Below, piece by piece: positions 19,690 to 37,261 of a DNA stretch of 64,000 nt (its first letter is position 1; every line of letters starts with the position of its first letter). Made by a program: the position numbers and the translations under genes. The DNA is taken from the NCBI RefSeq assembly GCF_019633745.1, contig NZ_CP037968.1, positions 2,548,789-2,612,788 of the forward strand. The letters are read 5' to 3'. This DNA comes from Methanofollis formosanus (GTDB taxonomy: Archaea > Halobacteriota > Methanomicrobia > Methanomicrobiales > Methanofollaceae). The notes below the pieces were generated by a model. That model worked only from the letters and a program-made list of their open reading frames with translations, was not told where the DNA came from and ran no database searches.

Positions 19690-22600
19690 ACGTACGACCA
19701 ACAATTCTTCAGACAACTCTCAGAGAGCATAAACCGTACTACACTCGTCCATTTCTTCGGCATACTCCTGCTTGCCCTCGCCCTCGCCCTCGCCTCGCCG
19801 CCGGTGGCTGCAGCCGAAGTGACGGTCAACCCCGGCGAGAGTATCCAGGCGGCGATCGACGCTGCCGCTGCCGGCGACGTCGTCCTCGTCGGCACCGGCA
19901 CCTATGACGGGGCCGTGACCGTGAACAAACGCCTCACTCTCACGAGCACCGAGGGTGCGATCGTGAACGGCAAAATTTCCCTCACCTCCACCGCCGACGG
20001 TGCGGTGCTCGAAGGTCTCGCCGTGAACGGCGTTGTGGTCGACCATGCCGACGACGCCGTCGTACGGGGGTGCACCGTAAGGGACAGCAGTGACGGGGTT
20101 CGCATCACATACTCGACGAACTGCACCGTGGAAGGATGCACGGTGGGGGGCACCATCCCTGGCGACGGCATCTACCTCTCCTGCGCTGGCCAGCCCAGGA
20201 TCCTGGACAACCAGGTGACCGGGTGTGGAGGTTTCGGGATCATGCTCATACAAGATTGCCCCGACGGTATCATCTCAGGAAACACTGTCCGGGACTGCAA
20301 CGAAAGAGGCATCCAACTCCAGTCCGGGTGCCAGGGTTCTGTGGTCGAATCCAACACCTGCTCAGGCAATGACGGTGGTTTCAGGGTCAGTGGATGCACC
20401 GGCACGACCACCGTCCTGAGGGACAACACCGTCATTGGAGACCGAAACATCGCGGTCAACCTGGAGGGTGTGAACTCTGTCATCATCGAGAATGTGACGG
20501 TGAAGGACGGGAAGTACGGCATTTTCCTCACCAATGTCGAGAATACCACACTCACCAACAGCACCTTCACCGGGCTCACCGGATATGGACTGTTTGTTTA
20601 CCACGGCTCTTACGCGACGAACTCCCTCATCGCCAACAACTTCTTCAACAACACCCAGAACCTCTGTATCCGGGATGGCTACGTTATGACCGGCACCCGC
20701 TGGAACATGACGAAGACCGCCGGTGAAAACATCCGCGGCGGTTCGTTCCTCGGCGGCAACCTCTGGCTGACGCCCACGGGCACGGGTTTCTCCCAGACCC
20801 GCGCCGACTTCGACCTCGACGGGATCTGCGACGAGGGCTACGATCTTGGGAACGGGTGCATCGATTCCCTTCCGCTCCAGAACGGCGGGCCGTCGGCGAA
20901 CTTCAGCGTGGCACCGTCGAGCGTGATGACCGGCGTGCCGGTCTTCTTCAACGACACCTCGGTGGGCGACCCCACCTCATGGTCATGGACATTCGGCGGG
21001 GAGACAGAGACCACCCGGAACGTCACCCGCACCTACGGGAACGCGGGCACCTACCAGGCGACGCTGACGGTGGAGAATGAGTTCGGGACGAACACCACGA
21101 CCCACACGTTCACTGTCGAACCCTACACCATCCAGGGCGCGGTGGACGCCGCCTCTGAGGGCGACGTCGTCCTCGTCCCCGCCGGCACCTATAACGAGGA
21201 CGTGACGGTGGACAAGAACATCACCCTCAGGGGGAACGAGGGCGCGACAGTGAACGGCGGCATCACGATCACCGCCGACGGTGCGAACGTCGAAAACCTC
21301 ACCGTCAATGGGGTTATCTCTGTCGACGGGGCCGATAACGCCGTGGTGCGGGGATGCATCGTGCGGGACGGAAGTGACGGGGTTCGCATCACATCCGCGG
21401 CGAACTGCACCGTGGAGGAGTGTACGCTGAGCAGTATGGGTGGCAACGGCATCAGCCTCTCCTCCGCAGGCCAGTGTCGGATCCTGGACAACCAGATGAC
21501 CGGATGTGGGGGTTTCGGGATTATTCTCTATTCCAATTGCCCTGGTTGTTTCATCTCAGGGAACACTGTCCAGGACTGCAAGGAAAGAGGCATTCAACTC
21601 CAGTCCGGATGCCAGGGCTCTGTGGTTATCTCAAACATCTTTTCAGGCAATAATGGCGGTTTGAAAGTCTATGGGTGCAAGGGGCAGACGACGATCCTGA
21701 GAGACAACACTCTCCTCGAGAATAACTACTATGGAGTCAGCCTGGAGAAGGCGGACTCCGTCATCGTCGAAAACGTCACGGTGAAGGGCGGGACGTCCGG
21801 TATTTCCCTCACCAATGTCGAGAATATCACGCTCACCAACAGCACCTTCACCGGGCTCACCAGTTGTGGACTGTCTGTTTACCCCCGTTATTCCGCGACG
21901 AACTCTCTCATCGCGAACAACCTCTTCAACAACACGTGGAATGTCTATATCCCGGATACCTCAGACCTGACCGGCACCCGCTGGAACACCACAAAGACCT
22001 TCGGGAAAAACATCCACGGCGGCCCCTTCCTCGGCGGCAACCTCTGGCTGACGCCTGAGGGAACCGGGTTCTCGGAGACCCATGAAGATCTCAATGGCGA
22101 CGGGATCTGTGACGAGGGCTACGACCTCGGCGAGGGATGCATCGATGCCCTCCCGCTCCACACCTGCATCCCGACCGCGAACTTCACCGCCGCCCCGACC
22201 GGCGGCAGCACCCCGCTTGAGGTGCAGTTCGCCGACGCCTCGTACGGTGTCCCCTTCCTCTCCCGTTCATGGGACTTCGGGGACAACAGTCCCGCGGTCG
22301 ACCATACCCGCCCCACCCATATCTTCTCGACCAACGGCACCCACCAGGTCACCCTGACGGTCACGAACGCCTTCGGGAGCAGCACGATGACAAAGACGGT
22401 CACCGCCCTCGACCCGCCGAAGGCAAACTTCACCGTCACGCCTGCGGGAGGGAACGCTCCCCTCACGGTTGCATTCACCGATGAATCGACGGGCTGTGTC
22501 TTCAGCCGTGTCTGGGACTTTGGAGACGGTTCGATCTCGACCGAAGAGCGCCCATCCCACACCTACGCATCAGCCGGCACCTACACGGTCTCTCTGAATG

Positions 22601-23289
22601 TCAGCAACCCGTACGCCTCGAACTCGACGATGCTGAAGAACTGCATCACGGTTGAGTCGCCGGGCGTGAGCGGCGGTGGTAGTGGTGGAGGCCGCTCGCC
22701 CGCATCGGCCGGTGCGGCAAGCAAGATCCCGGCCGGCGGGCACGCCTCCTTCGAGGTCCGTGACTCGGCGATCCACGAGGTGAAGGTGACCGCCGCTGAA
22801 GCGGTCTCGCATATCCTGGTCACCGTCGAACCGACCGCAAAGCCGCACAGTATCGAGGCCCCGGCCAATGCGGTCTATGAATACGACGAAGTGATGCTGT
22901 ACCACACCACCGACGAGGCCCTTGCCGGCGCCGACCTCGACTTCACGGTTCCAAAGACGTGGCTCGAAGAGCACGGCGCCGGTCCCGATGACGTGACACT
23001 GTACCGCTACCACGACGGCGCGTGGCACGCCCTCCCCACCCGCATCATCGCCGAGGACGAGCACCGGTACTCTTTCACCGCCACATCGCCCGGCTTCTCG
23101 CTCTTCGCGATCGGAGTCGATGCGTCCGGGCCTGCGCCGCCGGTGACACCCGCGGAGACCGCGACCCCCCTCCCGGTCACGACCCCGGTCACCACGGCGA
23201 CCACCGCCCCGCAGCAGAGTCCGCTCCCGTACGGGTTTGCGGCCCTTGCCGCCGGTGCCGCCCTCCTCCTCAGGGGAAGGCGGGAATAA
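19690..23289 (+). CDS. Surface beta-helix/PKD protein with PGF-type C-terminal anchor
   Basis: About 1199 residues. The reading frame from 19648 has no ATG, GTG or TTG until GTG 19804, yet a signal peptide (LVHFFGILLLALALALASPPVAA) is encoded before that GTG. A ribosome site GGAGGG at 19677 sits 7 bases ahead of an ACG codon at 19690, so start is set there with low certainty. Two parallel-beta-helix blocks (NosD/CASH type) each end with DLDGICDEGYDLGNGCIDSL-like loops. PKD domains follow each block and pair up later (FGDNSPAVDHTRPTHIF; VWDFGDGSISTEERPSHTYA). A PGF-pre-PGF domain (about 1010-1150, ending TSPGFSLFAIGVD), a Thr/Pro linker and a final hydrophobic segment with RGRRE complete it. 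Likely anchored to the S-layer or membrane. Confidence 0.85.
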   Translation, partial: TYDQQFFRQLSESINRTTLVHFFGILLLALALALASPPVAAAEVTVNPGESIQAAIDAAAAGDVVLVGTGTYDGAVTVNKRLTLTSTEGAIVNGKISLTSTADGAVLEGLAVNGVVVDHADDAVVRGCTVRDSSDGVRITYSTNCTVEGCTVGGTIPGDGIYLSCAGQPRILDNQVTGCGGFGIMLIQDCPDGIISGNTVRDCNERGIQLQSGCQGSVVESNTCSGNDGGFRVSGCTGTTTVLRDNTVIGDRNIAVNLEGVNSVIIENVTVKDGKYGIFLTNVENTTLTNSTFTGLTGYGLFVYHGSYATNSLIANNFFNNTQNLCIRDGYVMTGTRWNMTKTAGENIRGGSFLGGNLWLTPTGTGFSQTRADFDLDGICDEGYDLGNGCIDSLPLQNGGPSANFSVAPSSVMTGVPVFFNDTSVGDPTSWSWTFGGETETTRNVTRTYGNAGTYQATLTVENEFGTNTTTHTFTVEPYTIQGAVDAASEGDVVLVPAGTYNEDVTVDKNITLRGNEGATVNGGITITADGANVENLTVNGVISVDGADNAVVRGCIVRDGSDGVRITSAANCTVEECTLSSMGGNGISLSSAGQCRILDNQMTGCGGFGIILYSNCPGCFISGNTVQDCKERGIQLQSGCQGSVVISNIFSGNNGGLKVYGCKGQTTILRDNTLLENNYYGVSLEKADSVIVENVTVKGGTSGISLTNVENITLTNSTFTGLTSCGLSVYPRYSATNSLIANNLFNNTWNVYIPDTSDLTGTRWNTTKTFGKNIHGGPFLGGNLWLTPEGTGFSETHEDLNGDGICDEGYDLGEGCIDALPLHTCIPTANFTAAPTGGSTPLEVQFADASYGVPFLSRSWDFGDNSPAVDHTRPTHIFSTNGTHQVTLTVTNAFGSSTMTKTVTALDPPKANFTVTPAGGNAPLTVAFTDESTGCVFSRVWDFGDGSISTEERPSHTYASAGTYTVSLNVSNPYASNSTMLKNCITVESPGVSGGGSGGGRSPASAGAASKIPAGGHASFEVRDSAIHEVKVTAAEAVSHILVTVEPTAKPHSIEAPANAVYEYDEVMLYHTTDEALAGADLDFTVPKTWLEEHGAGPDDVTLYRYHDGAWHALPTRIIAEDEHRYSFTATSPGFSLFAIGVDASGPAPPVTPAETATPLPVTTPVTTATTAPQQSPLPYGFAALAAGAALLLRGRRE

Positions 23290-24813: not shown

Positions 24814-26154
24814 TCAGGCCGCGAGGGGCCTGAGTTTCGCGACGACACGCTCGACCTGCTCGACCGCGGTGCCGATATAGTTGTCAGGGTTGAGGAGGGC
24901 GGCGATCTCCTCGGAGGAGAGGACGGCCGCGACCTTCGGGTTCTCTTCGAGGACGCCGGCGATGTTTCTCTTCTCTGCAAGGGCGGTCATGCTCGCCACG
25001 CGGACGGCCTCGTGGGCGTCCTGCCTGCCCAGACCGCGCTTGGTCAGTTCGATCATCACCGACTCGGCCAGGTTCACGCCGTGGAGGAGGTCGAGGTTCT
25101 TCCTGATGTTTTCCTCCCTGATATTGAGGCGGTCGAGGACGCCGGTCATCACGTTGAGGATGTGGTCGGCGAGGACCGAGGCCTCGGGGAAGACCACCCG
25201 CTCGCAGGAGGAGTTGGTGAGGTCGCGCTCGTCCCAGAGGGTGTTGTTCTGGAGGGACGGTTCGACCATTGCGCGGACGATCCTGGCCAGGCCGCAGACC
25301 TGCTCGCTCTTGATCGGGTTCCTCTTGTGCGGCATCGTCGATGACCCGACCTGCTTTTTGCCGAAGGCCTCCTCGACCTCGGCGAGTTCGGTCCGCTGTA
25401 AGGACCTGATCTCGACCCCGATCTTGTCCAGGGTCGTGGCCATGTTCGCGAGGAAGAGGACGTACTCGGCATAGCGGTCGCGGGAGATCACCTGGTTCGA
25501 GACGTCGACCGCGGTGAGGCCGAGATATTCCATCATCGCGGGCTGCACCTCAAGCCCCTTTGTCCCCAGGGCCGCCTGCGTCCCGACGGCGCCGGTGAGC
25601 TGCCCGACGGCGACCCGCGGCCGTATCTCGCGGAGACGCTCGATGTGCCTGCCGACCTCGCTTGCCCAGATCGCGAACCGCAGCCCGTACGTCGTCGGCA
25701 CGCCGTGCTGGCCGTGGGTGCGTGCGACGCAGACGAGGTTCTTCGTCTCCTCGCTCCTGCGGAGGAGGACGGCAAGGAGCCGCTGGAGTTTCTCCTCGAT
25801 CAGGTCTATCGCCGCCTTCATCTGGAGCCCGGTGGCGGTGTCCAGGATGTCGTTCGAGGTGGCGCCGAAGTGTATCCAGCGTCCGGCGTCGCCGCAGACC
25901 TCGGTGACCGCCTTGACGACGGCCATCATGTCGTGGTTGATCTCGGCCTCGATCTCGTTTGCCCGTGCGAGGGTGGCCTCGCCCGCGCACTGCTTGATCG
26001 TCGCCGCGGCGTCGGCCGGGATGACCCCGCACGTCGCCTCGGCCTGTGCAAGCGCGACCTCTGCCGCCACAATGCACCTGAACCGGTTCTCTTCGCCCCA
26101 GACGCTCTTCATCTCGGGCGTGCCGTACCGGTAGTCTATCGGGTGGATCGCCAT
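24814..26154 (-). CDS. purB: Adenylosuccinate lyase
   Basis: 446 residues, normal size. It removes fumarate from SAICAR and from adenylosuccinate in purine synthesis. The fumarase/aspartase superfamily signature is GSSTMPHKRNP at about 270-280, holding the catalytic Ser loop, with IHFGATSNDILDTAT at about 93-107 and ARTHGQHGVPTTYG at about 143-156 supplying the general acid/base His. The start MAIHPIDYRYGTPEM is the standard archaeal one. Single transcription unit; the stretch 26155-26349 upstream holds no clear gene. Confidence 0.96.
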   Translation of the reverse strand: MAIHPIDYRYGTPEMKSVWGEENRFRCIVAAEVALAQAEATCGVIPADAAATIKQCAGEATLARANEIEAEINHDMMAVVKAVTEVCGDAGRWIHFGATSNDILDTATGLQMKAAIDLIEEKLQRLLAVLLRRSEETKNLVCVARTHGQHGVPTTYGLRFAIWASEVGRHIERLREIRPRVAVGQLTGAVGTQAALGTKGLEVQPAMMEYLGLTAVDVSNQVISRDRYAEYVLFLANMATTLDKIGVEIRSLQRTELAEVEEAFGKKQVGSSTMPHKRNPIKSEQVCGLARIVRAMVEPSLQNNTLWDERDLTNSSCERVVFPEASVLADHILNVMTGVLDRLNIREENIRKNLDLLHGVNLAESVMIELTKRGLGRQDAHEAVRVASMTALAEKRNIAGVLEENPKVAAVLSSEEIAALLNPDNYIGTAVEQVERVVAKLRPLAA

Positions 26155-26349: not shown

Positions 26350-27125
26350 AAATCGGCTGTGTAGAATCAGGCATGAGGCGAGCGCCCCGCCTCAAGCATA
26401 CGCAATGAAAATATCAGATCAGATCTGGATCGGTTCTTGACCCTTATCCCTGCGTTCGAGGAGCGAATCGGAGTCAAGCATCGTGCCGCCCCCCGGCTAT
26501 CTTCGTCGTGGGGGGCCCGGGGGGTTTCCCCCCGGCGCGAGACAGCAGGGAAATCTCGACGATTGGGGGCGGCAGATCCATCAGAGGGATTTTCTATCCT
26601 CTGCGTATCGGCTTCAAATGGATATGACGAGTTCAAACGCTCATGCAAACCTGAAGAGAGGATCGTCAGGATCATTTTCATGGTAAACCCTCGCCAATTC
26701 TTGGTGCGAGTGCGATTCGTCGAAGAGAACCATCAAGATGATTTACCATGAAAATCATCCAGACGTTCAGTTCTGGAGGTATGGATGAGAATTTGAACAC
26801 ACAGAGATTCCTCATACCTGATATGCGGAGAACAAAACCGCCTTCAGAACGATCAATCCTCTGCCTTCCCGGCTCAATCTTCATCCCGGGGGTCCGGGCG
26901 GCAAGCGCCCCCGGCATGGTGTTGTGGGAAGGCGTGATGATCAGGCGTGCCGCCCTCATCGCACGATCTTTCCTGCCGTCTCGCGAGAAGATAGACGAGG
27001 GGCGGCGATGGAACACGATCCTCTCCGACTCTTCTCTCTTGAATAAAAGCGATCAAGCAACGGGAAATTTTCATCCCGTATGCTTGAGCCCGGGGCTCAT
27101 GCAAAATTCTACAAAGCCGATTTTC
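26350..27125. mobile_element. MITE-like element 1 with terminal inverted repeats
   Basis: About 776 bases bounded by inverted repeats of about 60 bases: the left end (26350-26414) has CGGCTGTGTAGAATC and CTCAAGCATACG, followed by ATGAAAAT; the right end (27064-27125) is its imperfect inverse (ATTTTCATCCCGTATGCTTG and ATTCTACAAAGCCG). No transposase-length reading frame lies inside. The interior holds a 209-base module at 26484-26692, whose inverse recurs at 52364-52570, and a second module with TCTCGCGAGAAGATAG at about 26870-27010. It occupies the gap between purB and the acetyl-CoA synthase operon. Confidence 0.7.
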
Positions 27126-27189
27126 GGCTCTGTAGACTCTCTCCTGAAGCGAGAGCACGCCCTTGCGATGGTGTGATCCCGGCAGGGAT

Positions 27190-27930
27190 TCATCCGCATC
27201 TCTCCATCACCCACCGGCCAAGCCCTTCCACCGCCGCCCTCGCCGGACTCTTCGGCGGGACCGAGATGACCGGGCGGCCCGCGACGTCGGCCTCCTCGAC
27301 CGCCGGGTCGTACGGGACGACGGCGGCGAGGGGGAGGGGGCCGGCCGCCACCGCCTCGCCCTTCGAGCGGTTGACGACCAGGAAGATCCTCTCCTCGTCG
27401 AGGCCCAGGGCGACAGCGAGGTCCCGGATCCGCAGGGCGGTCCGCAGGCCGCGGGCCGAGGGGTCGGAGACGATGAGGAGGAGGTCGGGCGCCCCGACGG
27501 TGCCGCGGGAGATATGCTCCATCCCTGCCTCGGCGTCGATGACGACGCACCGGTAGTCCTGCACCAGCGAGTCGACGCACTCGCGGAGGAGATCGTTGGC
27601 GAAACAATAGCACCCGGTCCCTTCAGGTCTGCCCATCGCCAGGAGGTCGAAGCCCCCGGCCTCGACGAGCACCCGCCTGAACCGGTAGCCGATGTAGGCC
27701 CGCCGGTCCATTCCCGGCGGGATGTTCCTGGTGAACGCCTCCTCCCGCATCGTGCCGAGGGTCTCCTCGACGGCGACCCCCATCGCCTCGTGGAGGTTGG
27801 CGTTCGGGTCGGCGTCCACCACGAGGACCGGGCGCACGCCGGCGACGACGAGGGCGTCGACCAGCAGGGCGGCGAGCGTCGTCTTCCCGGTCCCGCCTTT
27901 CCCGGCGATCGCGACGGTGCAGGGGTTCAT
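27190..27930 (-). CDS. acsF: Nickel-insertion ATPase, AcsF/CooC family
   Basis: 246 residues. MinD/NifH-type P-loop ATPase: AGKGGTGKTTLAALL at about 9-23, switch region VDADPNANLHEAMG, and the CXC metal-binding pair in GTGCYCFANDLL (Cys107, Cys109) that defines the CooC/AcsF maturation proteins. These load nickel into carbon monoxide dehydrogenase (CooC) or into the A-cluster of acetyl-CoA synthase (AcsF). As acsB is in the operon and no CO dehydrogenase gene is, AcsF is the better reading. The ATG follows GGGAGGGGGGAAG and overlaps the stop of the methionine synthase gene (ATGA). Last gene of the operon. Confidence 0.85.
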   Translation of the reverse strand: MNPCTVAIAGKGGTGKTTLAALLVDALVVAGVRPVLVVDADPNANLHEAMGVAVEETLGTMREEAFTRNIPPGMDRRAYIGYRFRRVLVEAGGFDLLAMGRPEGTGCYCFANDLLRECVDSLVQDYRCVVIDAEAGMEHISRGTVGAPDLLLIVSDPSARGLRTALRIRDLAVALGLDEERIFLVVNRSKGEAVAAGPLPLAAVVPYDPAVEEADVAGRPVISVPPKSPARAAVEGLGRWVMERCG

Positions 27931-28949
27931 CTTCCCCCCTCCCGCGCCCTGCGGGCGACCGCCGCGGCGGCCTCCATGATCGCCTCGGCCCCCGCGTCGT
28001 CCGTCGCCCTGATCCCGCAGGTCGGCGTGACCAGCGAACGGTCGACGAAGGTGTCGTCGCCGACCAGGTCCGCGACCGTCCGCCTGATCGCGGCGAAGCG
28101 CCCGTGGATGCGGTCGAGTTCCCCGGCGTCCGGCGCCGGGCGGTCGGCCGGGACCACTCCCCATGCGACGACCCCGCCCCCTTCGAGGTACGCCGCCAGG
28201 TCGTCGCCGTACAGGAGAAACTCGCGGGCATGGGCGTGGGCGTCGAAGGAGACGAGGGACGGAGAGAGGGAGAAGACGAAGCCCCAGTCGGTGTTCGCGC
28301 AGCAGTGGATACCGACGCCTCCTTCGAGGAGGGCGGCGACGTCGGCGAAGGAGGAGCGGACCGTCTCCTCGTCCAGGGGGACGACCGGCGAACCGAGGGC
28401 GGTGAGGTAGGGCTCGTTGAGCACCACGACCGTCGGCACCCCGTGCGCCTGCATCCTCTCCTCGAACCACCGCGTCCGCAGGGCGAGCGCCTTTCCCAGG
28501 ACGTCGGCGTACGCCCCGTCATAGTGGACAGGCCGGCGCTCTGCGTCCACCGCCTGCATCCCCATCGTCGCCGGGCCGGTGACCTGGCACTTCAGGAGAG
28601 CGGCGCCGGAGAGGTCGTACGCCATCAGGCGGTGGAAGCCCGAGGCCGTCGCCGCCGATGCGGCGTACCCGGCGTACCGCTCCTCCAGGTAGTCCATCAG
28701 CACCGCCTCCATCGCCTCGTCGGCGGCGGTGTCGACGGTCACTTTCCCGTCGCGGACCTCCGCACCGGGCAGGCACTCCGCCTCCGCCAGGACGATCGCC
28801 TCGAGGGGGTTTTTGTTCGGGAGGGTCGGGGCGTACGGCACCTCGGGGAAGGCGGCGAGGACCGCCCGGCAGGCGGCGTCGGGGTCGCGGTGCGGCAGGG
28901 CGCCGACCCCGGTCGCCCGCAGTCCGGCCGCGGGGATCACGCCTGCCAT
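27927..28949 (-). CDS. Core methionine synthase, MesB/MesC-like (MetE fold, no folate domain)
   Basis: 340 residues from the ATG at 28949, which follows GAGGTGG. This is a single MetE-type barrel of the UROD/MetE superfamily. The zinc site that binds homocysteine is visible: His215 and Cys217 in GIHCCANTDWG, and Cys311 in TPTCGIRA, matching HxC and the PxCG of MetE. The N-terminal folate-binding half of MetE is absent. Core methionine synthases of the MesB and MesC families are predicted to take methyl groups from the corrinoid iron-sulfur protein of the Wood-Ljungdahl pathway, and here the gene is coupled to those very genes (13-base overlap with acsV). MesB versus MesC cannot be told by eye. 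Other corrinoid:thiol methyltransferases (MtaA type) are the alternative. Confidence 0.75.
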   Translation of the reverse strand: MAGVIPAAGLRATGVGALPHRDPDAACRAVLAAFPEVPYAPTLPNKNPLEAIVLAEAECLPGAEVRDGKVTVDTAADEAMEAVLMDYLEERYAGYAASAATASGFHRLMAYDLSGAALLKCQVTGPATMGMQAVDAERRPVHYDGAYADVLGKALALRTRWFEERMQAHGVPTVVVLNEPYLTALGSPVVPLDEETVRSSFADVAALLEGGVGIHCCANTDWGFVFSLSPSLVSFDAHAHAREFLLYGDDLAAYLEGGGVVAWGVVPADRPAPDAGELDRIHGRFAAIRRTVADLVGDDTFVDRSLVTPTCGIRATDDAGAEAIMEAAAAVARRAREGGR

Positions 28950-30856
28950 TGCCCCCACCTCTTTCGCAGCCTGCACTCTTCGAGCATCCTCTGCACCGTC
29001 GGGAAGAGGGCGAGGTCGGTGTGCGGGAGGAAACAGCTCTGCGTGTACCGGTCCATGAACCCCGGGTCCGCGTTCAGTTCGATATAGGTGACCGTCCGTG
29101 CGATCCGGTCGAGGGCCTTCCTCCGCTCGCGGCTGACGAGGGCCTGGTTCGCCCCGGTGATCGCCCCGTTCCCGAGGTTTTTCACCCGCTCGAGGGGCAC
29201 CTCCGGGATGAGGCCGATGGTGACGGCGTTCTCCTTCTCGATGTAGTTGCCGAAGGCCCCTGAGAAGAAGACGTTGGCGAGGTCGTCGTGGCCGATCCCG
29301 GCCGCGTCCATCAGGGTGATGCAGGCCGCGAGCACCGCCGCCTTGCTCATGATCAGGTTCCTGATGTCGTGGCCGGTGATCACGATATCTTTCCCCGCCC
29401 CGCTCTCCTCCTCCCAGGCGACGACGTACTCCGGGAAGTGGCGCCCCATCCGTATCCGCGGGTGGTCGATGCCGGTGTCGATCTGGCCGGTCCGGTCGAT
29501 GACGCAGGCGCGGATCAGGCCGGCGAGGAGGTCGATCAGCCCTGAACCACAGATGCCGACCGGCGGGACGCGGTTGATCGTCTCGAAGGCGGGTTCGAGG
29601 GTGGCCTCGTCGATCCGCACCCGCTCGATCGCCCCCGGGTTCGCCCGCATCCCGAAGAGCACCTCCCCACCCTCCAGGGCCGGTCCGGCCGCCCCGGCGC
29701 AGGCGAGCATCCAGTCCCGCCCGCCGAGGACCGCCTCGAAGTTGGTGCCGATGTCGATGAGGAGCGAGACCTCGTCCTGGTCGGCCATCCCTGACGTGAG
29801 GATGTCGGCGACGATGTCGCCGCCGATGAAGTTCGAGACCGCGGGGAAGGTGAAGACCCCGGCGGTCGGGGCGACGGCGAGGCCGAGGCGCTGCGCTGTC
29901 GTGGTGAACGTCCGCCTCACCACCGGGACGTAGGGTTCGGCGATCATGTAGGCCGGGTCGATGCCGAGGAGGAGGTGGGTCATCACCGTGTTGCCGGCGA
30001 CCGTCACCTCGTAGATGTCCTCGAGATCGATCCCGGCGGCGTCGGCCGCGGCGGTGAGCGCGGTGTTGATGCTCACGGCCGCGAGTTCCTGGAGGTGGCC
30101 GGTGCCGTTCTTCTTCGCGTAGTTCACGCGGGAGAGGATGTCCTCGCCGCAGGAGATCTGCCGGTTATAGTTCGAGGCCGTCGAGAGGACGCGGCCGCCG
30201 GCGAGGTCCCAGAGGTAGGCGACGACCGTCGTCGTCCCGAGGTCCACCGCCGCCCCGTACAGCCGCGCCCGGGTCTCCCCTTCCTCGACGTTGATGAGGC
30301 GGTAGCCGCCGGGCACCAGGGCGACCGTCGCCGTGCACCGCCACCTGCCGTGGCGGAGGACGACCGGGATCTTCCTGAGCATCTCGAGAGGTGCGTAGAT
30401 CTTCGTCGCCGCCGGTCCGCCGCTGTGCTCCACCCCTTCGAGGAGCCGCGCCAGGTCTGCCGAGGGGTCGTCCAGGGTGGGCGGGGCGAGCGTGAGGGCG
30501 TACTTCCGCACCGACGGGCTGACCGGGACGTCGAGGGGTCGGGCGTCCACCAGGATCTTCTGTTCCTGCACCAGGGTCCGCGCCGGGACCTCGATGCGGG
30601 CGTCGCTGAAGACCCGGGTCTGGCAGGCGAGGCAGGCGCCGGCGTCGAGTTCAGCGGTCTCGAAGAGGACGCCGAACTTCTCCCGGTCAAAGATCGTCTC
30701 CCCGCTCTCGACGCGGACGATGCATTTGCCGCACTTCCCCTGCCCGCCGCAGACGACGTTCATCACGAGTCCGGCCTTCTGCGCCGCTTCCAGCACCGTG
30801 GCGCCCTGTGTGACCCGGGCCTTCCGGTAGCCAGGGAGGAAGGTGACGATCGGCAT
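28937..30856 (-). CDS. acsV: Reductive activator of corrinoid protein (RACo)
   Basis: 639 residues. It has a plant-type [2Fe-2S] ferredoxin domain at about 1-95 with Cys36, Cys42, Cys45 and the CLAC pair (75, 78), then a linker and a DUF4445 ASKHA domain (about 200-630) with ATP-binding AAVDLGTTTVVAYLWDL, LLIDIGTNFEAVLGG and GAFGNYIEKENAV. This is the architecture of RACo, which uses ATP binding to drive an electron uphill and reactivate oxidised Co(II) in the corrinoid iron-sulfur protein. The ATG follows GGAGGGAT and is immediately after the acsC stop. MtaA-system activators (RamA) differ in carrying 4Fe-4S domains at the C-terminus. Confidence 0.9.
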   Translation of the reverse strand: MPIVTFLPGYRKARVTQGATVLEAAQKAGLVMNVVCGGQGKCGKCIVRVESGETIFDREKFGVLFETAELDAGACLACQTRVFSDARIEVPARTLVQEQKILVDARPLDVPVSPSVRKYALTLAPPTLDDPSADLARLLEGVEHSGGPAATKIYAPLEMLRKIPVVLRHGRWRCTATVALVPGGYRLINVEEGETRARLYGAAVDLGTTTVVAYLWDLAGGRVLSTASNYNRQISCGEDILSRVNYAKKNGTGHLQELAAVSINTALTAAADAAGIDLEDIYEVTVAGNTVMTHLLLGIDPAYMIAEPYVPVVRRTFTTTAQRLGLAVAPTAGVFTFPAVSNFIGGDIVADILTSGMADQDEVSLLIDIGTNFEAVLGGRDWMLACAGAAGPALEGGEVLFGMRANPGAIERVRIDEATLEPAFETINRVPPVGICGSGLIDLLAGLIRACVIDRTGQIDTGIDHPRIRMGRHFPEYVVAWEEESGAGKDIVITGHDIRNLIMSKAAVLAACITLMDAAGIGHDDLANVFFSGAFGNYIEKENAVTIGLIPEVPLERVKNLGNGAITGANQALVSRERRKALDRIARTVTYIELNADPGFMDRYTQSCFLPHTDLALFPTVQRMLEECRLRKRWGQWQA

Positions 30857-32188
30857 CTATCCCTCCGTCTCCGTCTCCAGGAACTCCCCGATCTCCGCGG
30901 CGTCGCGCGGCCCGACCCGCACCGTCCATCCGGTCGCCTCCTCGATCCTCCCCGAGAGGGGCGCTGCGAAGCCCGGGATGACGATGGTGCGGTGGCCCAC
31001 GGTCCCGGCAAGGTCCGTGGCCTCGATCGCTTTTTTCACCACCTCTTCATCGAGTTTTCCGCCGGCGACCGCCGTCAGGACCGAGAGCCCCGCGGTGTCC
31101 ACGACGAAGAGGTAGCAGGGAACCTTCGCGGCCTCCAGGTAGCCAAGGAGGGTGAAGTAGGTGAGGGAGAAGTTCACCGAGAGGAGGACGGGTGCGTCCC
31201 TGCCGGGATTGTTCACCGGGTAGATGCCGGGCGCCACCTGGATGGGTTTCTGCGGGTCGGTGTAGATGTTCTGGCGGAGAGTGAGGGCGGCGAGGAGGGA
31301 AGGGTGCGGCAGGGGCGGGACGGCGATGACGCCGGCATACCTGAGGATCCCGGCGGCGAGGGCGGCGTCGGTGCCGAGGGGCACGGTGTCCAGGTAGAGG
31401 GGGTACCCGAGGTCTGGCGCCGCCCTCGTCACGGCGTGCTCCCGGAGGTGCGAGGCCCGCGCCACGAAGTCCCCCATCGTCCGCGGCGCCGGGTCCAGGA
31501 GGACGGCCGGGGCGCCGGCGGCGGTGCACTGAGCGGCGAGGTCGGCGAGTTTCACCTGGGTTTCTGCCCGCACGACGAGCGGGCACCCGTAGCGCTTTGC
31601 GAGGGCCGCCATCTCCGCGTGGTTCTCCGTCGTCGCCGCGTGGATGAGGGGGAGGAACTGGCCGCAGACCCGGAGGGCCGCCTCATGAGCGGCGGGGTCG
31701 GCGGCGATGAGGAGGCGGGGGAGGTCGCCGCACTCCCCGACGGCCATGGCGGCCGCGGCAAAGCGGTCGGGATCGCCGCTCTCGCACCTGAGCGCGATCC
31801 CGTCGAGGGTCAGGTCCTGCCCGACCCGGTGGACGACGAAGTCCCGCACCTCCTCCGCGGTCCTCCTGATCTCCGCCACCGGCGAGGTGTCGGCGGCGCA
31901 GACCATGATGCCCGGGCGGTGGTAGAAGGTCTTCTCGTGCCTGAACATCACGATCTCCTCTCCGACGGTGAAGGAGCGGGCGCCGACGCCGACCGTCACC
32001 GCCCGCACCGGCGGCCTGGTCGCCCCGCCGAGGAGGGCCTTCGTCTCCTCGTCCAGGTACGGACAGCGTTCGGGTTCGACGCCGCCGGCGGCGAGTTTCA
32101 TCGCGAAGGCGAGGCAGGTCGGGAACCCGCACTCCTTGCAGTTGGTCTTTGGCAGGAGTTTGTAGACTTCGAGCGCCTTCATGGCCAT
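30857..32188 (-). CDS. acsC: Corrinoid iron-sulfur protein large subunit
   Basis: 443 residues from the ATG at 32188 (GGGAGGGAG upstream); a second ATG two codons on overlaps the acsD stop. The N-terminal [4Fe-4S] domain is shown by Cys17, Cys20, Cys25 and Cys42 (TNCKECGFPTCLAF...RCPYL). A TIM barrel follows, then a C-terminal corrinoid-binding domain from about 320 (APVLLSVNFSLTYFTLLGYLE; VVDTAGLSVLTAVAGGKLDE). This protein carries the methyl group on cobalt between methyl donors, acetyl-CoA synthase and acceptors. In archaea the same protein is CdhE. Sits between acsD and acsV. Confidence 0.93.
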   Translation of the reverse strand: MAMKALEVYKLLPKTNCKECGFPTCLAFAMKLAAGGVEPERCPYLDEETKALLGGATRPPVRAVTVGVGARSFTVGEEIVMFRHEKTFYHRPGIMVCAADTSPVAEIRRTAEEVRDFVVHRVGQDLTLDGIALRCESGDPDRFAAAAMAVGECGDLPRLLIAADPAAHEAALRVCGQFLPLIHAATTENHAEMAALAKRYGCPLVVRAETQVKLADLAAQCTAAGAPAVLLDPAPRTMGDFVARASHLREHAVTRAAPDLGYPLYLDTVPLGTDAALAAGILRYAGVIAVPPLPHPSLLAALTLRQNIYTDPQKPIQVAPGIYPVNNPGRDAPVLLSVNFSLTYFTLLGYLEAAKVPCYLFVVDTAGLSVLTAVAGGKLDEEVVKKAIEATDLAGTVGHRTIVIPGFAAPLSGRIEEATGWTVRVGPRDAAEIGEFLETETEG

Positions 32189-33096
32189 CCCGCTCCCTCC
32201 CAGAGGTCGGCGACCGCTTCTTTGAGCACCCCGACGGTGCGGGGGTGGCGGACGCAGACGATCCCGGCGCCGGCCACCGCCGCGGCGAAGGCGGCATAGA
32301 ACTCCCACTCCACTGCCGTCCCGGCCCGCTCTTCGTCAGGGGCCTCGCGCACTTCCTTTACCGTGAGAGAGTCCTGGGCGGCGCTGATCATCGGCATCGC
32401 CAGGTCGGCGTCGCCCGCGAGGGCGGCGGTGCGGACCCGCTCCATCACCGAGTACGAGTATTCGAAGCCGTACCCGAGGGCGCCGGTATAGGGGTCGATG
32501 ACGATCCGGTCGTGCGACACGCCGGTCTCCCGGAGCAGGATGTTCAACTGTTTTGCCAGGTTGATGTCGATCGGGGTCTGGGCGACGACGGCGTGGCCGT
32601 AGGCAAGGGCGGCGGCCGCGACCGAGCGGTAGCGCTCGGCCTCGGCCGTGCCGAGGAGGAGACGCTCCCCCTCGCCGGCCTCCCCGCACCGCCTGAAGAC
32701 CTCGGTGTCCAGGGCCGGGTCGGCGCTCCCCTCGACGACGAGAGGGAGGCCGGTGGCGGCGAGCACCTCCTCGACCGCCCGCCCGGCCGCCGCAGGGTCG
32801 TCGAAACCCCGTCGCCGCGTGCTCGTCAGGACGAGGCGGACCAGGTCGGCGTTCCACCACTCTTCCGCCGCCCTCGCCCATCCGGCGAGGTCGCCGGCAA
32901 GGTCGCCGACCTCCTCCAGCACGACCGCCGGCCAGAGGGCCGGGTCGTCGCAGATCTCCAGGGCGACCAGCGGCCTGCTCCCCGCGTCGCCCATGCCCGG
33001 CAGGGCCGATGCCCCGCCGATGCGGTACGACCGCGTCCTCGTCCCTCCTTCCGTGCGGGTGGCGCCGACCGCCACCTCCGTGATCCGTTCTGTCAT
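32179..33096 (-). CDS. acsD: Corrinoid iron-sulfur protein small subunit
   Basis: 305 residues, start at 33096 after GGGGAGGGAG. TIM-barrel subunit that pairs with AcsC: YRIGGASALPGMG near the N-terminus, VALEICDDPALWP, AQTPIDINLAKQLNILL, VIDPYTGALGYGFEYSYSVMERVR and DLAMPMISAAQ are the family words (CdhD in archaea). The frame remains open upstream to 34929, but that stretch is the wrong frame of acsB. The length matches bacterial AcsD (about 310-320) rather than the longer archaeal CdhD (often over 400), in line with the other genes here. Confidence 0.92.
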   Translation of the reverse strand: MTERITEVAVGATRTEGGTRTRSYRIGGASALPGMGDAGSRPLVALEICDDPALWPAVVLEEVGDLAGDLAGWARAAEEWWNADLVRLVLTSTRRRGFDDPAAAGRAVEEVLAATGLPLVVEGSADPALDTEVFRRCGEAGEGERLLLGTAEAERYRSVAAAALAYGHAVVAQTPIDINLAKQLNILLRETGVSHDRIVIDPYTGALGYGFEYSYSVMERVRTAALAGDADLAMPMISAAQDSLTVKEVREAPDEERAGTAVEWEFYAAFAAAVAGAGIVCVRHPRTVGVLKEAVADLWEGAGWP

Positions 33097-33107
33097 GCTC
33101 CCTCCCC

Positions 33108-35129
33108 TCAGATGATCGGGTCCATCGCCAGCGCCGGGTGGCCGGCCTTCTCCAGGAAGGCGACGAGGTCCTCCAGGGTCGTCGCCGTCCGTTCGTCCGC
33201 GATCCGCTCGAAGAGGTCGGGCATGCCGCGCTCCCCGAGCACCTGCCGCAACCGCTCTCCCAGTTCCTCTTTGAGGTGGGCGGGCATCCAGACCACCCGT
33301 GCGATCCCCCCCTCGGCCCTGAGGAAACGGTTCGAAAGGATGTAGTTCCTGGAGATCCCGAGGAACCCCGGCGTCTGCGCCCCGCCCCCGATCGTCCCGG
33401 CCAGGGTGGAGAAGGTCATGCCAAGAGGCGTCTCGCCCCTGTACTCCCTGGTGACGATCACCACCCCATTCGTCTCGGGAAGCACCGCGGCCACCGCCTC
33501 GAAACACCCGCAGGCCGTCATCGGGTACTCCATCATCCCGTACAGGCAGACCCGGTCCACCGTCCCGTGGGAGGCCTGCTTCACGAACCGGTTCACCCCG
33601 GCGAACTCGCCCGTGAGGTCGTCGACGATCTCTCCCTTCTCCACGGGCTGGTTTGCACCCGCCGGGGCGATCTCGTGGGCGATCCGGGCGTCCAGCCAGG
33701 TGATCGCCCCGCAGAGGGCCGGACGCTCGGGCGTGATGATGCAGACATGGTTGGGGGCGAAGGTCTGGCAGAGGGTGCATGAGTAGAAGAGGCCGGCGTC
33801 TTCGTCCTTCATCCCGGCGATCCGCTCGTCTCTCTGCCAGTAGACCTCCTCGGCCTCCGGGCGGGCGGCGAGGACCGCGGCCTCGTCGGTGATCAGCGTC
33901 ACCGCCACGGCGTCGAGGAGGTCGGGGAAGTCGGCCCTGAACCGCCCGGCAAGGAGGGTGCCGAGGTGCCTGATCCGCACCCCCTTCGCCACCGCCTCCT
34001 TCGAGAGGCGGACCCAGATGAGGTCGCGCTGGGCGACGTGCCAGGAGCCCTCGCCGTAGTTGAGGAAGGTGTGGACCCGTCTCTCCAGCACGGGTTCGTA
34101 CTCCTTCTTCATCCGTTTCCCGGCGACGTCCACCATGACGGCCAGGGGCAGGGCCGCGCCCGCGGCCACCTCGTCGGCCTCGGGCCCGATCACCGTCACC
34201 TCCCCGTCCTCCACCTCGTCGGGAGGCCGCATCCGCAGGAGTTCGAAGGCCGGGGTCCGCCCGCCCCCGAACTCGAGGTGCATCTCCTCTTTGCGGATGC
34301 TCTTCCCCTCGAAGGCTGGGGAGCAGGCCATCGGGATCGGGATCGCCGTCACCTTCACCCTGATCTCCCGCAGGTCCCGGCCGCGGCCGGCGGCCTCGCC
34401 GGCCTCCACCGCCACCCACTCGCCGCCCTCGTAGCCGTCGACCGAGAGCACCGGGATGCCGAGGGGGCGGAGGGCGTCGAGGACCGCGACCTCCTCTTCG
34501 GAGAGGCCGGGGAAGGCGACGACAAAGGCTTTTGCCCGTTCCCGTGCATAGGCCAGCAGGCGCCCGGCGTCGCCGGCCTGCACCCCGCCGAACATCATCG
34601 CCACCCGTGCGAGGATGTCGGCGAAGTGGACGGCCGCCATCCCGCCGGGCCCCAGGGGGACGAGACGGTACCCCGGCCCGACCTTCACGCCCGCCGCCGT
34701 GAGCGCCCCGGTCACCCCGCCGGCAAGGAAGGTGAGCATGTACGTCTCCTGCAGTTCCCGGCAGACCGCCGCGGCGGCGTCGGCATGTTCGGGCGTGCCG
34801 ACCAGGAGGGCGAGGCCCAGGATGCTCCCGTCCACCAGGGAATACCCGAGCCGCCGCAGTTCGGTGTCGCCGAGGAACCCGGTGTACGGCGCCTCCTCCA
34901 CCCCACCCCCGGCAAACGCCCTGACACACTCCGCGGCCACCAGCGGATTTTTTCCGGAGGCCAGGTACGCCGCCCGCGCCTCGTCGGCCCCGGTCACCCG
35001 CATCCCGGTCAGGGCATAACTCACCGGCAGGGCATAGGCCGTCTCCGCATAGGCGGCCTCCCCTTCCAGTCCGGCAATCGCGCTCTCCAGCCGTTCATTC
35101 CCCTGAGGGACGGCCATCGCCAGGTCCAT
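33108..35129 (-). CDS. acsB: Acetyl-CoA synthase, full-length bacterial type
   Basis: 673 residues. It joins a methyl group, CO and CoA to acetyl-CoA, or splits it, at the nickel A-cluster. The cluster ligands are all present: Cys451, Cys454, Cys463 and Cys473 (YSCTLCQTFAPNHVCIITPE...LCG), and Cys540-Gly-Cys542 (TACGCFEA). The C-terminus KAGHPALAMDPII mirrors Moorella AcsB. Unlike archaeal CdhC (about 470 residues), it keeps the N-terminal helical domain (residues 1-285, with PYTGFLGDTELRRLGY and MMFGGV), which in bacteria contacts CO dehydrogenase. I chose ATG 35129, which has GGGGGAG upstream and a TATA box at the right distance; GTG 35204 lies ahead of that promoter. First gene of the operon. 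Confidence 0.93.
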   Translation of the reverse strand: MDLAMAVPQGNERLESAIAGLEGEAAYAETAYALPVSYALTGMRVTGADEARAAYLASGKNPLVAAECVRAFAGGGVEEAPYTGFLGDTELRRLGYSLVDGSILGLALLVGTPEHADAAAAVCRELQETYMLTFLAGGVTGALTAAGVKVGPGYRLVPLGPGGMAAVHFADILARVAMMFGGVQAGDAGRLLAYARERAKAFVVAFPGLSEEEVAVLDALRPLGIPVLSVDGYEGGEWVAVEAGEAAGRGRDLREIRVKVTAIPIPMACSPAFEGKSIRKEEMHLEFGGGRTPAFELLRMRPPDEVEDGEVTVIGPEADEVAAGAALPLAVMVDVAGKRMKKEYEPVLERRVHTFLNYGEGSWHVAQRDLIWVRLSKEAVAKGVRIRHLGTLLAGRFRADFPDLLDAVAVTLITDEAAVLAARPEAEEVYWQRDERIAGMKDEDAGLFYSCTLCQTFAPNHVCIITPERPALCGAITWLDARIAHEIAPAGANQPVEKGEIVDDLTGEFAGVNRFVKQASHGTVDRVCLYGMMEYPMTACGCFEAVAAVLPETNGVVIVTREYRGETPLGMTFSTLAGTIGGGAQTPGFLGISRNYILSNRFLRAEGGIARVVWMPAHLKEELGERLRQVLGERGMPDLFERIADERTATTLEDLVAFLEKAGHPALAMDPII

Positions 35130-35242: not shown

Positions 35243-37261
35243 ATGGACCCGCTTGAAGACTGGTTCCCGTATCCGTCCTTCCGCCCGAACCAGAGGGAGA
35301 TGCTGGAGTTCGCCGCCGAGACCGCGCGCGACGGCGGGATCGCGATGATCGACGCCCCCACCGGCAGCGGGAAGTCGAGCGTCGTCTCCGCCCTCCTCGC
35401 CGCCCGCGGCAGAAAGAGGGTGGTCGTGGCGGTGCGGACCATCTCGCAACTCGCCACCTTTATCCGAGAACTCGAACTGGTCAGGAAGGTGAAGCCCACC
35501 CTCACCTTCGCGTACCTCGTCGGAAAAAGTTCGATGTGTCCGCTCGGCGGGGAAGGCGATCCCTACCGGCGGTGCGAGGCGGTCAAGGCCTTCTCCTCCT
35601 CGCTGATGCGCGAGCAGGCGCACAAGGGGTCCCTGGTCCCGACCGAGGATAAGGTGATCAAGGAGCAGATCAGGAAGATGGACCCAGAGCACCCGCTCAT
35701 CTGCCCGTACTTCATCAAGAGCCGGGTCTTTGTGAAGGACAGCGAGGAGGCCGGGCTGCGGATGGGGCCGTCCGGAGCGCTGCGCGACCGGGCCAACCGC
35801 GTCCGGCGGGAAGGGATCCCCCCCGAGAGCCTCAACGCCTTCTGCCGGGGACTCTGTCCGTACGAGACGATGATGCAGGCGGCCCGCGGCGCCGACGTCC
35901 TCATCTGCAACTTCCACCACCTCTTCAACGACGACGTGAGGGACCAGCTGTACGCCAACCTCGACATCGAGCCCGAAGACGTCCTCCTCCTCATCGACGA
36001 GGCCCACAACTGCGGGGACGTCGTCGAGGGGATCCAGAGCGTCGTCCTGGAAGCCAGGGTGCTGGAAGGGACGATGACCGAACTGGCCCACCTTTCGAAG
36101 AACATGAAGTCGGTGAACGCCGTCAGGCAGATCCTCCCCAATGTCTCGCGTTTCATGGAGGACCTCAAGCGTTCGCCCAAGGACGAGGACTGGTTCGACC
36201 CGGCGATCTTCCACCGGATGGCGATCAAGGGCTCGCTGTACAAGGGGCTTGAAGAGGTCGTCGAGGACCTCTCCAGGATCGCCGAACGGGTTTCCGAGAA
36301 GAACAAGAACGCCGGGATCTACAAGGAGAGCGCGGTCGAGCAGTTCTCTGAGTTCATGTACCGCGTCTACCGTGCCGGCGCCGACCCGACCTTCCTCACC
36401 CTGTACCGCTCCTCCGAGGGCGTGGTCGAACTCGAGGTGCGAAACATCGACCCGAGCGGGAAGATGCGAGAGATCTGCGAGGCCCATGCCGGCGCCGTCC
36501 TCATCTCAGGCACCCTCTCCCCCCTCGACGCCTACCGGAAATACTTCTTCGGCGACGTCGAGGTCCGCACGCAATCTCTCCCGAACAGTTTCCCGCGGGA
36601 GAACCGGCTGCTCGCCTGCGCCGACGACGTCACCACCGCCTACCGGATGCGCCGCGATCCCAAAAACACCGAGCGGATCGTCGGCTACATCCGGGCCTTC
36701 GCCCAGGCGCCTGGCAACCTGGCCGTCTACTTCCCCTCGTACCAGCTCCTCAACACCTATGCCGAGGCCTGCGGGAGCCGGGTCAACGGCAAGAAGGTCT
36801 ATGTCGAGCCCAGGGAAGCGGGCGAGGCGACGGCGGCGCTGAGGGAGTTCGTCGGTCTCCCCGAGCGCGGGAAGGCCGGGATCCTCTTTGCGGTCTGCGG
36901 CGGCAAGTGGAGCGAGGGCCTCGACTACCGCGGCGAGATGCTGCGCGGGGCGATGGTCGTCGGCCTCCCGCTGGCGCCGTACAACAATGTCCGCCGGATG
37001 GTCATCGACTACTACAAACACAAGTTCGGGCGGGAAGGCGAGTTCATCTCGTACACCCTCCCGGCGATCAATAGGGCCACCCAGGCGCTCGGCCGGGTGC
37101 TCCGGACGCCGGAGGACGTCGGGGTGCTCGTCCTCGCGGAGCAGCGGTTCCTGGAGCAGGGAGTGCGGGACGGGCTGCCGCCCTGGATGCAGCAGGAGAT
37201 GGAGCGGTGCGGGCTCGAGGGCTTCAGGCGCCTGGTGCTCCAGTGGAAAGGCCGGCGGTGA
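35243..37261 (+). CDS. XPD/DinG-like superfamily 2 DNA helicase with Fe-S cluster
   Basis: 672 residues. Walker A is DAPTGSGKSSVVSAL at about 37-51 and Walker B is LLIDEAHN at about 250-257 (DEAH). Between them are Cys residues in KSSMCPL, YRRCEAV, LICPYFIK and FCRGLCPYE that can hold the [4Fe-4S] cluster of the XPD family. Helicase domain 2 motifs (VLISGTLSPL; GKWSEGLDYRGE; QALGRVLRTPEDVG) follow. It unwinds DNA 5' to 3', probably in repair. The start MDPLEDWFPYPSFRPNQREM is the usual start of archaeal forms. ogt follows 6 bases later, a second repair gene. Confidence 0.92.
   Translation: MDPLEDWFPYPSFRPNQREMLEFAAETARDGGIAMIDAPTGSGKSSVVSALLAARGRKRVVVAVRTISQLATFIRELELVRKVKPTLTFAYLVGKSSMCPLGGEGDPYRRCEAVKAFSSSLMREQAHKGSLVPTEDKVIKEQIRKMDPEHPLICPYFIKSRVFVKDSEEAGLRMGPSGALRDRANRVRREGIPPESLNAFCRGLCPYETMMQAARGADVLICNFHHLFNDDVRDQLYANLDIEPEDVLLLIDEAHNCGDVVEGIQSVVLEARVLEGTMTELAHLSKNMKSVNAVRQILPNVSRFMEDLKRSPKDEDWFDPAIFHRMAIKGSLYKGLEEVVEDLSRIAERVSEKNKNAGIYKESAVEQFSEFMYRVYRAGADPTFLTLYRSSEGVVELEVRNIDPSGKMREICEAHAGAVLISGTLSPLDAYRKYFFGDVEVRTQSLPNSFPRENRLLACADDVTTAYRMRRDPKNTERIVGYIRAFAQAPGNLAVYFPSYQLLNTYAEACGSRVNGKKVYVEPREAGEATAALREFVGLPERGKAGILFAVCGGKWSEGLDYRGEMLRGAMVVGLPLAPYNNVRRMVIDYYKHKFGREGEFISYTLPAINRATQALGRVLRTPEDVGVLVLAEQRFLEQGVRDGLPPWMQQEMERCGLEGFRRLVLQWKGRR

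Follow-up and report, generated by a model that had tools for sequence, protein, structure and literature searches.

Can an acetyl-CoA synthase (ACS) serve a methanogen in which no working CO dehydrogenase (CODH) is available as its partner? This question is raised by a six-gene cluster of Methanofollis formosanus, situated at positions 27,190 to 35,129 of the DNA stretch analysed here (the window, 64,000 nucleotides of contig NZ_CP037968.1), which encodes an ACS together with a corrinoid iron-sulfur protein (CFeSP), its reactivator, a MetE-fold methyltransferase and a P-loop ATPase. Analysis of the locus, the complete genome and related genomes revealed that this cassette is intact, that its ACS is under purifying selection and that no canonical CODH accompanies it. 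Judged by its genes, the combination of an ACS with no working CODH holds throughout the M. formosanus genome. The cassette may represent a CODH-independent methyl-transfer module that cleaves acetyl-CoA, with homocysteine as the most likely methyl acceptor, an explanation to which we give roughly an even chance.

Gene content and organization of the cassette

The six open reading frames, re-derived from the sequence, are all located on the minus strand in the order acsB-acsD-acsC-acsV-mesB-cooC, with spacings of +11, -10, 0, -13 and -4 bases from acsB to cooC. This confirms the tight packing (gaps of -13 to +11), gene order and positions given in an earlier note on this DNA. Families were assigned via NCBIfam and Pfam, and for mesB via a structural model.

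The first gene, acsB (33108..35129), encodes a bacterial-type ACS of 673 amino acids, which matches NF040764 with 864 bits (cut-off 800) over positions 7-673, the N-terminal domain included, as well as PF19436, PF03598 and ACS structures in the Protein Data Bank (PDB). The A-cluster ligands are complete (CxxCxxxxxxxxC...C and CGC). In its N-terminal domain and A-cluster the protein resembles the ACS of the bifunctional bacterial CODH/ACS (M. thermoacetica, Carboxydothermus hydrogenoformans); unlike these it has no CODH partner, and the alignment with 8cmw is poor over the N-terminal ~78 residues. A short AcsB N-terminus was considered as a mark of a lost CODH interface and dropped, since the alignment with the ACS of C. 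autoethanogenum (6ytt) begins close to the start of that protein and the difference in length is small.

Both CFeSP subunits are encoded: the small subunit AcsD (32179..33096; 305 amino acids; NF003376, 331 bits; PF03599) and the large subunit AcsC (30857..32188; 443 amino acids; NF003195, 507 bits; PF03599, PF04060), the latter carrying a 4Fe-4S motif. They are followed by acsV (28937..30856), encoding the ATP-dependent reductive activator of the corrinoid protein (RACo, 639 amino acids) with its ASKHA domain (PF14574, PF17651, PF17650 and PF00111; the match to NF040756, at 553 bits, is below the cut-off), and by mesB (27927..28949), encoding a core zinc methyltransferase of 340 amino acids. 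The last gene (27190..27930) encodes a CooC/AcsF-like P-loop ATPase of 246 amino acids (PF01656, MinD/ParA family matches), presumably the nickel insertase of ACS. The cassette is bordered by purB and a rad3-family helicase gene, and no CODH, cdhB, acsE or mtr gene was found in it or in its flanks, in agreement with the earlier note.

Search for CO dehydrogenase in the M. formosanus genome

A CODH encoded elsewhere could still form a complex with this AcsB, and was looked for in the whole genome (G000 in our survey), which consists of one contig of 2,965,921 bases and is 99% complete. One CdhC/ACS domain was detected, while no CdhA of the archaeal CODH/ACS exceeded the cut-off. Two Prismane-family genes are present, one for a hydroxylamine reductase (HCP) and one for a CooS homologue (G000:C1:304739-306427; L003:1438-3342) that is unlinked to the cassette. 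Since this homologue matches the CODH model TIGR01702, an annotation pipeline would label it as CODH. Among PDB entries 7b7q scores highest (676 bits, versus 383 for the next); we take it, also from a shared motif, to be CooS-V of C. hydrogenoformans. In the M. formosanus protein IETGQE replaces CCTGNE, placing Glu at the catalytic Cys295, one of the six ligands of cluster C, and the remaining ligands are kept. The same Cys295Glu exchange occurs in CooS-V (7b7q; PMC9311411), a type that converts neither CO to CO2 nor CO2 to CO (PMC9311411). From this likeness we infer that the homologue is probably no CO dehydrogenase, despite its likely annotation, and it was rejected as a CODH partner of AcsB because of Cys295Glu.

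The CdhA and CooS searches thus left AcsB with no canonical Ni,Fe CODH partner in this genome and, as the sole CooS is of the Cys295Glu type, the functional lack of CODH appears to be genome-wide. The lack of CODH noted for the locus and its surroundings is literal there, and it extends in function to the entire genome only because the one CooS homologue is of this deviant type. Homologues of this CooS-V type that are 92-94% identical occur in three other genomes (G085, G090 and G091), and the type is present in most Methanofollis and in many other Methanomicrobiales.

Distribution of the cassette and of CODH

MesB of the cassette type was found in 112 of 232 Methanomicrobiales genomes, and the order acsB-acsD-acsC-acsV-mesB-cooC recurred across the order wherever the neighbourhood was read. 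The presence of CODH was tallied by hand from the tables of the CdhA search, the CooS search and residue checks on the fetched CooS genes. Among the 49 cassette genomes that are at least 95% complete, 24 encode archaeal CdhA, 12 only canonical CooS, and 13 neither (G000, G046, G048, G056, G063, G072, G075, G076, G082, G097, G133, G188 and G221). The CODH-less state requires at least five changes on the AcsB tree and is spread over several genera. The cooC-like ATPase is retained in the cassettes of CODH-less genomes and, because it is kept where no CODH exists, it is more plausibly regarded as a nickel insertase of ACS. The 24 near-complete genomes with both CdhA and the cassette argue against carbon fixation as the task of the cassette. 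Many genomes of one family (f6; G158, G192, G194, G195 and others) carry an archaeal CdhC (~470 amino acids) beside CdhA, and in the cassette a bacterial-type AcsB (~680 amino acids).

Downstream of the cassette, at a distance of ~2 kb, G156, G211 and G219 have a canonical CooS accompanied by a cooC of its own. This arrangement, a canonical CooS and a second cooC ~2 kb past the cassette in three genomes (loci L173, L183 and L184), is possibly an ancestral or a re-formed CODH/ACS neighbourhood.

Outside the order, the same six genes in the same order and with no adjacent CODH were found in Deltaproteobacteria (L045, L046, L050 and L061) and in a Heimdallarchaeota locus (L031). The complete chromosome of Deltaproteobacteria bin162 (CP070783, L061) contains the cassette, and no gene of the Prismane (CODH/HCP) family was found in it. 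The locus of Candidatus Heimdallarchaeota (L031, 3834-11749) places the six-gene order in an Asgard archaeon, and the only Prismane-family gene found in that organism's genome is CooS-V-like. In Methanomassiliicoccales the cassette genes are split into two convergent blocks. This group was rejected as wholly CODH-free, as nine Methanomassiliicoccus-like genomes were checked and three had canonical CooS, the others being drafts of unknown completeness.

Selection and descent

Every cassette AcsB long enough to include the motif has retained the A-cluster cysteines. Between Methanoculleus genomes without canonical CODH, the ratio of nonsynonymous to synonymous substitution rates (dN/dS) of acsB was 0.12-0.14, among the lowest of the cassette and near that of purB (0.10-0.17) in the same comparison. 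The low ratio and the intact A-cluster argue against decay.

The cassette occupies a conserved site, marked on one side by purB (adenylosuccinate lyase; 24814..26154, minus strand; TIGR00928, synteny) and on the other by the rad3-family helicase gene (35243..37261, plus strand; TIGR00604, 216 bits, below the cut-off; synteny). purB, the cassette and the helicase gene are direct neighbours in the Methanofollis genomes G000, G086 and G089 and the Methanoculleus genomes G056 and G072, and lie near one another in G082. The site is empty, and purB adjoins the helicase gene, in five Methanofollis genomes that lack the cassette (G085, G088, G090, G092 and G095). The cassette was found in 4 of 12 members of the genus, its divergence between Methanofollis species resembles that of purB, and it has been lost as a whole block and not one gene at a time. 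Its genes have a raised GC content (0.69-0.73), but at third codon positions their GC content resembles that of neighbouring genes. These observations are best explained by a long-standing presence of the cassette and its repeated loss as a block, with recombination within the genus as a possible contributor. Recent horizontal transfer was rejected as the main account because of the purB-cassette-helicase synteny common to Methanofollis and Methanoculleus and the corresponding empty sites of sister species. The description of the locus as a transferable cassette in the earlier note was thus not supported: two families share the synteny, the empty sites are clean and the divergence is purB-like.

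Two further features were noted near the cassette. A terminator-like hairpin of 13 pairs with a T-rich tail is located 3' of cooC (27108..27136, minus strand), a consensus match from a scan whose total was not clearly higher than that of shuffles. Beyond purB, positions 19804-23289 of the window (plus strand) encode a large surface protein that combines parallel beta-helix repeats, a NosD-like region and a PGF-pre-PGF domain; NosD-like pieces near purB were also seen in sister species.

MesB and its substrate pocket

No Pfam, NCBIfam or PDB sequence match was obtained for mesB. Its identity was therefore deduced from an AlphaFold2 model (46 aligned sequences, predicted local distance difference test score 94.7), from the fold matches of this model to MetE and MesD, and from a conserved zinc motif. 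The best PDB matches were the MesD structure 3rpd (Z 25.7) and MetE (Z about 25), the next families, including methyltransferase 4ay7, reaching 20. The model shows the MetE C-terminal fold without the folate-binding domain. All 98 order members compared have the zinc ligands H215, C217, D236 and C311, which agree with the positions of Price et al. (PMC7857596).

The homocysteine-binding site is different. According to PMC7857596 the homocysteine-binding Ser and Asp (equivalents of Ser433 and Asp599) are for the most part retained in the MesB family, while the M. formosanus protein has A17 and N178 at these sites. The Asp, which contacts the amino group of homocysteine, has given way to Asn, Ser or Gly in 86 of the 98 order members, and the aligned sequences from outside the order have it; the Ser433 equivalent is changed to Ala or Gly in 78 of 98. 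Four further positions (W40, Q42, G121 and Q162) do not vary outside the order but are altered in MesB of Methanomicrobiales. These exchanges suggest that the order's MesB either binds homocysteine differently or has changed its acceptor.

Proposed mechanism and alternative explanations

Acetyl-CoA cleavage of the Dehalococcoides type is the most economical explanation, because ACS, CFeSP, the reactivator and a MetE-fold methyltransferase form a conserved unit that persists without canonical CODH. In Dehalococcoides mccartyi, labelling has shown that the methyl group of acetate reaches that of methionine via AcsB, AcsCD and core-MetE without CODH (PMC7005905, PMC7857596), and CO accumulates in Dehalococcoides (PMC6113397). 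M. formosanus has the corresponding AcsB, AcsC, AcsD and MesB, the last assigned by fold and zinc site, and both organisms lack a functional CODH and AcsE. Unlike D. mccartyi, M. formosanus has all these genes in one operon, with RACo and the presumed nickel ATPase; moreover, it is a hydrogenotrophic methanogen with MesA and methyl-tetrahydromethanopterin (methyl-H4MPT), its MesB pocket differs, and its route is a prediction from sequence.

In the proposed route, acetate would be converted to acetyl-CoA by acetyl-CoA synthetase, for which two AMP-forming enzymes score over the cut-off in the genome. AcsB, with nickel presumably inserted by the CooC/AcsF-like ATPase, would split acetyl-CoA, setting free CoA and CO, and the methyl group would pass to the cobalt of AcsCD. 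RACo would restore oxidised AcsCD cobalt to Co(I), and MesB would take the methyl group off the corrinoid and pass it on to a zinc-bound thiol. CO would leave the cell, or be oxidised in relatives with canonical CODH. The direction of the ACS reaction, the acceptor, the release of CO and the role of the ATPase are all predictions. Homocysteine is the most likely acceptor, giving methionine beside the MesA route, with another thiol as a real alternative.

Several observations weigh against this proposal. Besides the one CooS homologue, searches of the genome returned one MesA outside the cassette. MesA is a second methionine synthase, which 132 of the 135 high-quality genomes in the order encode; the M. 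formosanus MesA keeps the homocysteine-binding Ser and Asp that MesB has exchanged. The genome also carries two tandem copies of mtrA (G000:C1:1409335-1410792), as is known for Methanomicrobiales (PMC4632066), and PMC7857596 proposes MtrA as the methyl donor of MesA. M. formosanus makes methyl-H4MPT for methanogenesis, from which the methyl group of methionine in methanogens derives (PMC7005905). The earlier note's view of the cassette as the whole route from acetyl-CoA to methionine is therefore supported for the conserved ACS-CFeSP-RACo-MetE-fold unit and weakened, as regards methionine, by MesA, the two mtrA copies and the Ala and Asn in MesB.

The exchanges in MesB, combined with the unchanged zinc ligands and the presence of a MesA that keeps Ser and Asp, would be accounted for if MesB of Methanomicrobiales methylated another thiol, coenzyme M being the obvious candidate, so that acetyl-CoA was linked to a methyl-thiol and not to methionine. 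An Asn could, however, still form a hydrogen bond with an amino group, Asp is retained in 12 order members, and the closest fold is MetE and not methyltransferase 4ay7; this alternative is considered unlikely. The more specific proposition that the ACS-CFeSP module passes an acetyl-derived methyl group without CODH to a thiol other than homocysteine (e.g. giving methyl-coenzyme M), through an altered MesB subfamily with a kept zinc site, is likewise doubtful.

The ACS could also run in the opposite direction, toward acetyl-CoA on outside CO. Archaeal CdhDE takes the methyl group directly from methyl-H4MPT. If AcsCD did the same, ACS would add outside CO, or CO made by CODH in relatives, and MesB would only tap the methyl-CFeSP pool. 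The methyl-H4MPT metabolism of M. formosanus (mtrA), the canonical CooS in 12 of the 49 genomes and its location close to the cassette in three of them are in line with such forward synthesis, to which we nevertheless assign a rather low probability: no CO-forming enzyme was found in the 13 near-complete CODH-less genomes, M. formosanus among them, yet acsB is under strong purifying selection, and archaeal CODH/ACS is already present in 24 genomes. It is very improbable, and largely refuted, that an ancestral CODH/ACS of bacterial type lost its CODH and left the cassette as a decaying remnant. The patchy presence of the cassette and its clean empty sites would suit a relic, but all six genes are intact, the A-cluster and zinc ligands are complete, dN/dS is 0.12-0.26 in CODH-less pairs, the CODH-less state occurs in several genera, and losses took place as a block. 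The cleavage of acetyl-CoA is thus preferred.

Relation to earlier reports and biological significance

Operons of mesB, acsC and acsD in methanogens have already been published, as described in the text of Price et al. (2021, PMC7857596), in which, figures apart, no mention was found of CO dehydrogenase, of a CODH-less state or of the loss of Asp in this order. Nagoya et al. (2021, PMC8621161) reported partial Codh/Acs sets in complete Methanoculleus genomes and read them as deletion in progress, whereas in the same taxa we observed a conserved six-gene unit under selection. Within the literature searched, whose scope excluded figures and most subscription journals, no prior report was found of a CODH-less six-gene unit across the order, of the Cys295Glu CooS in such genomes or of the Asp loss in MesB.

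ACS is usually regarded as half of a CODH/ACS pair. Here it remains intact and under selection in lineages without working CODH, whose members have no obvious need for another methyl source. If this ACS does split acetyl-CoA, it would account for some of the need for acetate in Methanoculleus-like methanogens, genomes with a "partial Codh/Acs" would be re-read as carrying a functional module and not a decaying one, and these methanogens would be CO producers. The cassette offers a direct test of ACS as a lone methyl donor in archaea.

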